A DNA stretch of 64,000 bases, taken from contig CAMCNU010000004.1 in NCBI GenBank assembly GCA_945876385.1, positions 1-64,000 on the forward strand, read 5' to 3'. Below the pieces are notes generated by a model, which was not told the origin of the DNA, did no database searches, and saw only the letters and a list, made by a program, of their open reading frames with translations. This DNA comes from an uncultured Veillonellaceae bacterium (GTDB lineage: Bacteria > Bacillota > Negativicutes > Veillonellales > Negativicoccaceae). The number at the start of each line of letters is the position of its first letter. Positions within the stretch are counted from its first letter, which is position 1. This document shows, in pieces, positions 1 through 18,841 of the stretch. A program made the translations under genes and the position numbers.

Positions 1-16
1 TCTTGCGTACCGCTCC
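1..16 (-). tRNA. serine-type tRNA-like gene, 5' fragment cut by window edge
   Basis: These bases match the first 16 nucleotides of the two complete tRNA-like genes at 102-183 and 269-350, including the acceptor strand GGAGCGG. The rest lies outside the window. A TACAAT hexamer on the minus strand lies upstream at 34-39, as in the other copies. Confidence 0.5.
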
Positions 17-65
17 GTAACAAGTCTGTTCTGATTGTACGGGGCGGAGGGCAACTGTTTCGCCA

Positions 66-90
66 ATAAAAAAAGACAGCTTGCGCTGTC
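66..90 (-). terminator. terminator of tRNA-like gene copy 1
   Basis: Minus-strand hairpin with arms GACAGC/GCTGTC followed by seven T residues, a classic intrinsic terminator placed about 12 bases after the tRNA-like gene at 102-183. Confidence 0.85.
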
Positions 91-101
91 GATACGTCCG
101 G

Positions 102-183
102 CGGAGCGGGTGGGATTCGAGCCCACACGGGGTTCCGTCTAACGATTTAGCTCCGTCCGCATTCGCCTCTTGCGTACCGCTCC
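102..183 (-). tRNA. serine-type tRNA-like gene with abnormal anticodon loop, copy 1
   Basis: The minus strand folds as a class II (long variable arm) tRNA. There is a perfect 7-bp acceptor stem GGAGCGG/CCGCTCC, a 3-bp D stem CGC/GCG with a serine-like D loop, a variable arm ACGG/CCGT, a T arm GTGGG/CCCAC and discriminator G. The anticodon arm is odd. The best 5-bp stem (GACGG/TCGTT, two G-U pairs) leaves the loop AGCTAAA, which puts CTA at the anticodon with G instead of U at position 33; a GCT reading needs a 9-base loop. The 3' end reads CCG, not CCA, although all four ordinary tRNAs in this window encode CCA. It may be an unusual serine tRNA, a tRNA-derived regulator or a decaying gene. 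Confidence 0.6.
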
Positions 184-232
184 GTAACAAGTCTGTTCTG
201 ATTGTACGGGGCGGAGGGCAACCGTTTCGCCA

Positions 233-257
233 ATAAAAAAAGACAGCTTACGCTGTC
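233..257 (-). terminator. terminator of tRNA-like gene copy 2
   Basis: Same hairpin as at 66-90, with one loop difference, and a T tract on the minus strand. Confidence 0.85.
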
Positions 258-268
258 GATACGTCCGG

Positions 269-350
269 CGGAGCGGGTGGAATTCGAGCCCACACGGGGT
301 TCCGTCTAACGATTTAGCTCCGTCCACATTCGCCTCTTGCGTACCGCTCC
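269..350 (-). tRNA. serine-type tRNA-like gene with abnormal anticodon loop, copy 2
   Basis: Same fold as the gene at 102-183. It differs at two sites: the D stem has GTG in place of GCG, and the T stem has TCCAC in place of CCCAC. Both changes turn a G-C pair into G-U and keep the helix, which suggests the fold is under selection. The anticodon loop and the CCG end are identical. This copy lies directly behind the strong promoter at 368-396. Confidence 0.6.
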
Positions 351-367
351 GTAAAAAGTCTGTTCTT

Positions 368-396
368 ATTGTACGGGGCGACGGCTTTTTTGTCAA
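368..396 (-). promoter_or_regulatory. strong promoter of the tRNA-like array
   Basis: On the minus strand, TTGACA (391-396), a 17-base spacer and TACAAT (368-373), about 18 bases before the tRNA-like gene. The internal units keep TACAAT (201-206 and 34-39), but their -35 position reads CGAAAC, so only the first unit has a complete promoter. Confidence 0.85.
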
Positions 397-447: not shown

Positions 448-523
<76 letters not shown>

Positions 524-527
524 ATAT

Positions 528-602
528 TGGTGACCCGTGGGGGAATCGAACCCCCGATACCGCCGTGAAAGGGCGGTGTCTTAACCGCTTGACCAACGGG
601 CC
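528..602 (-). tRNA. tRNA-Glu (TTC)
   Basis: A 75-base cloverleaf on the minus strand with anticodon loop CTTTCAC (anticodon TTC) and encoded ACCA. Four bases separate it from tRNA-Val. Confidence 0.97.
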
Positions 603-603
603 A

Positions 604-679
604 TGGCTCCCTGAGTAGGACTCGAACCTACGACCGATCGGTTAACAGCCGATTGCTCTACCGACTGAGCTATCAGGGA
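604..679 (-). tRNA. tRNA-Asn (GTT)
   Basis: A 76-base cloverleaf on the minus strand with acceptor TCCCTGA/TCAGGGA, anticodon loop CTGTTAA (anticodon GTT) and encoded GCCA. First gene of the operon. Confidence 0.97.
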
Positions 680-18592: not shown

Positions 18593-18841
18593 AAACTCGC
18601 CCCCTAAGGGGCGAGATATTCCCGCGGTACCACCCTCATGAACGACTGTCGTCGCCACTCAGCGCGATAACGGCGCGTGACCGGTGTCGCCTTGGCCGCG
18701 ACACGACTCCCGAGTGATTCGTATCAGGCGTGTCGTCTTCGGCTTGCACTCTCCCGAATTCGCTGGCCGACCCGGCATTGATACCGTCTCGTTCTTCGTC
18801 TTTGCCACATATATGCGTACTTACTCATATCTGTGATAATT
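18593..18841 (-). ncRNA. T-box leader of ileS
   Basis: The T-box sequence AGGGTGGTACCGCG (about 18624-18637) is followed by a terminator hairpin CTCGCCCC/GGGGGCGAG and a T run ending near 18593. Upstream, CGAG/CTCG and GTATCA/TGATAC helices flank an internal loop GAATCA, giving the specifier ATC (18716-18718), an isoleucine codon. The leader starts near 18841, behind the promoter. Confidence 0.93.

Follow-up and report, generated by a model that had tools for sequence, protein, structure and literature searches.

The window (the whole 64,000-nucleotide stretch analysed, taken from contig C4 of the 1.52-Mb, 24-contig assembly G000) carries on its minus strand a tandem array derived from the family's tRNA-Ser(GCU) gene, and the anticodon arm is damaged in all complete units sequenced. 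A normal tRNA-Ser(GCU) was not found in the 1.52-Mb assembly with a relative's gene as query and a pattern search; the close matches were the array units only, followed by other serine tRNAs. This absence, despite normal use of AGY codons, and the damaged anticodon arm are the main point, which was overlooked by the original prediction of a serine-type tRNA-like array. We lean modestly towards the reading that the array consists of diverged copies and that a competent tRNA-Ser(GCU) is hidden in an assembly gap.

Organization and ancestry of the array

The predicted 167-bp tandem repeat was recovered by TRF (2.3 copies, 97% match over positions 1-380 of the window). In each complete copy, a TACAAT-containing leader precedes a class II tRNA-like body, and a hairpin-T7 terminator follows. 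In unit 1, a full sigma-70-like promoter (TTGACA-17-TACAAT, 396-368, minus strand as for all features of the array) precedes the tRNA-Ser-like body (350-269) and an intrinsic terminator (GACAGCGTAAGCTGTC-T7, 257-235, hairpin part 257-242). Unit 2 has a -10-like TACAAT (206-201) with no TTGACA-like -35 at 16-18 nt, a second body (183-102) and its terminator (GACAGCGCAAGCTGTC-T7, 90-68, hairpin part 90-75). The terminators of both complete units on C4 follow the form GACAGCG(T/C)AAGCTGTC-T7. Unit 3 is represented by its start (39-1), comprising TACAAT at 39-34 and the first 16 nucleotides of a third body (16-1). A consensus scan of positions 1-720 returned the unit 1 promoter as the only sigma-70-like site, bearing out the prediction that only the first unit has a full promoter; later units keep just TACAAT.

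The array was expected to run off the window; indeed, it also leaves contig C4 inside unit 3, where the contig itself ends. Its other end was located at the left end of contig C17 (G000:C17:1-175, locus L005), where the last unit precedes a terminator and a gene that we take, from our own reading of the protein, to encode an acyl-CoA synthetase. The end of C4 and the start of C17 differ at 2 sites across 76 aligned bases, and the C17 unit is distinct from units 1 and 2 as well. Because the C17 unit differs from the partial unit 3 at two positions, the array comprises at least four units in total, a minimum that could fall were the assembly a mixture of strains. An assembly artefact with one real copy, the outcome that would have undone the original prediction, is unlikely: the copies differ, and the array ends adjoin different unique flanks, both matching the flanks of the relatives' single gene.

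Upstream of the array is an ordinary cluster of tRNA-Val(UAC), tRNA-Glu(UUC) and tRNA-Asn(GUU) (448-679, minus strand), in an order that matches G002 and G003. Three genomes of the same family (G001-G003) each have one ordinary monocistronic tRNA-Ser(GCU) ahead of the common downstream gene. In G002 and G003 the order is Asn-Glu-Val-terminator, then promoter-Ser(GCU)-terminator, then acyl-CoA synthetase, and the array occupies the position between these shared flanks; upstream synteny was confirmed in these two genomes, the G001 contig beginning 67 bases before the tRNA. The array bodies matched the tRNA-Ser(GCU) model R1 with 68-74 bits (67.7 bits for unit 1; E about 1e-15 to 1e-18), scores too high for a chance match, while the relatives score 116. 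Identity to the relatives' tRNA-Ser(GCU) was 84-85%. Together with the synteny, this upholds the serine assignment and identifies the array as derived, in syntenic position, from the tRNA-Ser(GCU) gene of the family. A phage or mobile origin was rejected, as neither phage records nor viral contigs contained a match.

The original prediction considered it unusual that every unit is terminated. The terminators are present, but the relatives' single gene already bears its own terminator and an equally placed TTGACA promoter; since tandem duplication copies the terminator too, the per-unit terminator is inherited rather than new. The lack of a -35 in later units is explained by the position of the duplication junction: the 167-bp repeat includes leader, body and terminator but not the -35, leaving the full promoter on unit 1 alone.

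Sequence changes in the array units

The array shares with the relatives' tRNA-Ser(GCU) its locus and flanks (among family members), a 7-bp acceptor, a long variable arm, G73, the GCUAAAUCGUUAG segment and its own promoter and terminator. It differs in having at least four copies, and in the loss of two anticodon-loop bases including U33, U54C, deletion of the residue-48 region, CCG in place of the encoded CCA and a D-stem changed with compensation. These changes were found in all complete units sequenced. The anticodon loop, UUUGCUAAA in the relatives, is AGCUAAA in all three complete units (GACGG-AGCUAAA-UCGUU for the unit 1 arm), so that none has a seven-base loop with U33 and GCU at 34-36. 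The T-loop has C54, and the GC preceding the T-stem is deleted; the D-loop is rearranged and the variable loop shortened relative to the relatives. Unit 1 nevertheless has the 7-bp acceptor, a 3-bp D-stem, a long variable arm with a stem (ACGG/CCGU), the T-stem and the discriminator G73, and GCUAAAUCGUUAGACGG is fully conserved in the array units.

G001, G002 and G003 have the same tRNA-Ser(GCU) body, the core of which does not vary among 14 genomes of the order (G001-G003 and 11 more Veillonellales-type relatives). Of 62 columns invariant in the order, 10 are changed in the array, a pace of change that suggests copies released from constraint. Among the columns occupied in the relative, the changes are unevenly distributed: 3 of the 48 that are paired are altered, compared with 11 of the 41 that are unpaired (Fisher p about 0.01, with adjacent deletions not independent). 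The D-stem CUC:GAG of the relatives became CGC:GCG in unit 2 and CGC:GUG in unit 1 and the last unit, a compensated change from U-A to G-C, and all stems are kept. With the changes avoiding stems and the D-stem change compensated, the pattern resembles selection acting to preserve the fold, not unconstrained decay. Unit 1 and the last unit have two C-to-T differences from unit 2, which leave the D- and T-stems pairable through cloverleaf G-U pairs, just as predicted. The same differences (window 268-350 versus 101-183, minus strand; L005:61-143) also give full pairing to an alternative 5-bp helix, GUGGA:UCCAC, which is the predicted minimum-energy fold in unit 1 and not in unit 2; folding by free energy is uninformative here, since the normal tRNA also lacks the cloverleaf by this measure.

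The original prediction described each fold as complete. Two full-length tRNA-like bodies do lie on C4, but they are not functionally complete: the Rfam tRNA model RF00005 (gathering threshold 29 bits) matched none of the units at E<=1, its genome-wide list did not contain them either, and ARAGORN called unit 2 only, as tRNA-Pyl(CUA) (window 100-183, minus strand). A tRNA-Sec identity was rejected, RF01852 being without match on the array units. Allo-tRNAs are serine-type class II tRNAs with non-serine anticodons and 8/4 or 9/3 acceptor branches (Mukai et al. 2017, reviewed in PMC7609411). The array resembles them in class, and some allo-tRNAs likewise come as runs of tRNA-like sequences, but its acceptor branch is 7/5 (8/5 in one reading, in which C-1 pairs with G73) rather than 8/4 or 9/3. 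Anticodon stems of 4 bp occur commonly among bacterial tRNAs (5.6%; PMC13092985), and such tRNAs share with the array a weakened closing pair of the anticodon stem; they, however, keep a recognizable anticodon position and are called by tRNAscan-SE, whereas the array misses two loop bases.

Conservation of the stems with compensation, and the full promoter and terminator on unit 1, would also fit a tRNA-like RNA kept for a non-translational role, for example as a seryl acceptor or regulatory RNA. The precedent is the Bacillus cereus pseudo-tRNA tRNA-Other, which is tRNA-shaped and believed not to serve translation (PMC3399842); it is a single copy with a Trp anticodon and part of a longer RNA, whereas the array has tandem units with their own terminators and a damaged loop. 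By this analogy such a role would be possible, but we consider it improbable. No partner gene or target was found, and the specifier of the serC T-box, read by eye, is apparently of the UCC type and unmatched by these loops, on which ground a T-box decoy was also set aside. Furthermore, when about 85,000 species genomes were scanned for the shortened loop, a single match came up outside this genome, on an Anaerolineae contig that looks protein-coding and in which ARAGORN called no tRNA, limiting the variant to this one genome among the species scanned.

Ten T-box-like leaders were found in the genome, including the one upstream of serC. Another of the ten lies in the window at 18604-18805 (minus strand), below the Rfam cut-off and upstream of a gene that reads like isoleucyl-tRNA synthetase. 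At L104:1256-1449 and 1501-1707 (G000:C1), a raiA RNA directly precedes the T-box leader of a serine acetyltransferase-like gene.

Decoding of AGY and UAG codons

AGY codons make up a share of 0.360 of serine codons, compared with 0.374 in G002 (472 reciprocal-best orthologues), and AGY/UCN exchange with G002 across these orthologues is symmetric (201:183). Where the three neighbors on each side are identical in the orthologues with G002, AGY stands opposite serine in 468 of 562 cases. Reassignment or avoidance of AGY was accordingly rejected, as AGY is common and still serine. In the most conserved genes the AGY share is likewise unchanged (0.307 versus 0.296), with nothing to suggest a crippled AGY tRNA. 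The other serine tRNAs found in the assembly are GGA, UGA and CGA, none of which reads AGY under known wobble rules. The cell needs a tRNA-Ser(GCU), and since AGC and AGU are used normally, a translation-competent one should exist.

Homology predicts that the array units retain the anticodon GCU and lack positions 32-33; judged by loop geometry, the predicted center is CUA, with G at 33. The CUA-centered loop with G at 33 accounts for the ARAGORN label, which on a degenerate serine tRNA is a likely annotation trap. An amber suppressor or pyrrolysine-type tRNA with anticodon CUA would agree with that label and with the centering of the 7-nt loop AGCUAAA, but we judge it very improbable. Position 33 is G, an intact RF1 gene is present, and UAG is not avoided, ending 55 of 472 genes (11.7%) as against 60 (12.7%) in G002. 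In-frame UAGs opposite G002 proteins showed no serine pattern, their clusters being spurious antisense ORFs or gene ends. As UAG is an ordinary stop, the units are not amber or Pyl tRNAs, and amber recoding was rejected on this stop use and the alignments with G002 proteins.

The main rival to a hidden gene is that the array itself would be the cell's only AGY-reading tRNA, with amplification offsetting low efficiency. Only positions 32-33 are lost, and the original A37-A38 and the 3′ stem still follow GCU; the loop A-GCU-AAA, closed by four to five pairs, could be shifted or widened such that GCU reads AGC and AGU. This reading is stronger than expected, as the location of the array exactly at the ancestral locus, the conserved GCUAAAUCGUUAGACGG segment containing GCU, the kept stems and the compensatory D-stem change all fit it. 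AGY is certainly decoded as serine, the assembly has no other Ser(GCU), and 4-bp anticodon stems are common in bacterial tRNAs (5.6%; PMC13092985). Against it stand the loss of U33, U54 and the residue-48 region, U33 being described as critical for cognate decoding (PMC12202706). Moreover, amplification would bring little dosage, since later units are without a promoter; conserved genes show no reduced AGY use; and repeats of this very kind are where the assembly has gaps. We regard the array as sole AGY reader as tentative and rather unlikely. That all AGC and AGU codons would be read by a tRNA lacking two loop bases including U33, its gene amplified to offset poor decoding, seems slightly more doubtful again.

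A competent gene in the assembly gaps

Repeats are clearly missing from the assembly. The 16S rRNA was not found in it, and Ile(GAU) and Ala(UGC) are absent from its tRNA inventory. The smallest contig is 6.3 kb; contig ends elsewhere overlap by exactly 55 bases, while C4 and C17 are unjoined. The 55-base overlaps suggest a k=55 short-read graph with small contigs dropped. At the base immediately before the final 55 of C4, the units differ (AAACA versus AAACG), a pattern expected of an array interior that forms an unresolved repeat. A normal unit may sit inside the array or on a dropped contig. A second tRNA cluster was also affected: the right end of G000:C18 (L078) stops inside a second tRNA-Val copy by an Asp-Phe-Leu-Leu cluster, indicating that this cluster collapsed in the assembly.

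In the favored reading of diverged copies and a hidden gene, the family's single-copy monocistronic tRNA-Ser(GCU) gene would have been amplified in tandem, after which the copies diverged. The sequenced copies would have retained an on-paper class II tRNA fold and serine features (long variable arm, G73) while losing features of normal decoding, namely two loop nucleotides including U33, U54, the residue-48 region and the encoded CCA, and would be poorly or non-decoding pseudo-tRNAs. The competent gene would most likely lie in the unassembled array interior or on another missing repeat contig; because both outer units are variants, it would need to be flanked by variants or lie elsewhere. The array with its homology and synteny, the altered positions, the codon usage, the role of UAG as a stop and the lack of a normal gene in the assembly were observed directly, whereas a hidden competent copy and a loss of decoding by the variants are inferred. 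The absence of the normal gene from the assembly and the stem-sparing, compensated changes count against this reading.

If a normal copy is hidden, the array would show tandem tRNA genes in the process of decaying and would caution against tRNA callers that label such copies tRNA-Pyl. Should a normal tRNA-Ser(GCU) be absent from the genome, the tRNA reading a sense codon box would violate rules regarded as nearly universal (U33, loop geometry and U54), and the array would be an example of an essential tRNA that drifted and was then rescued via gene amplification.
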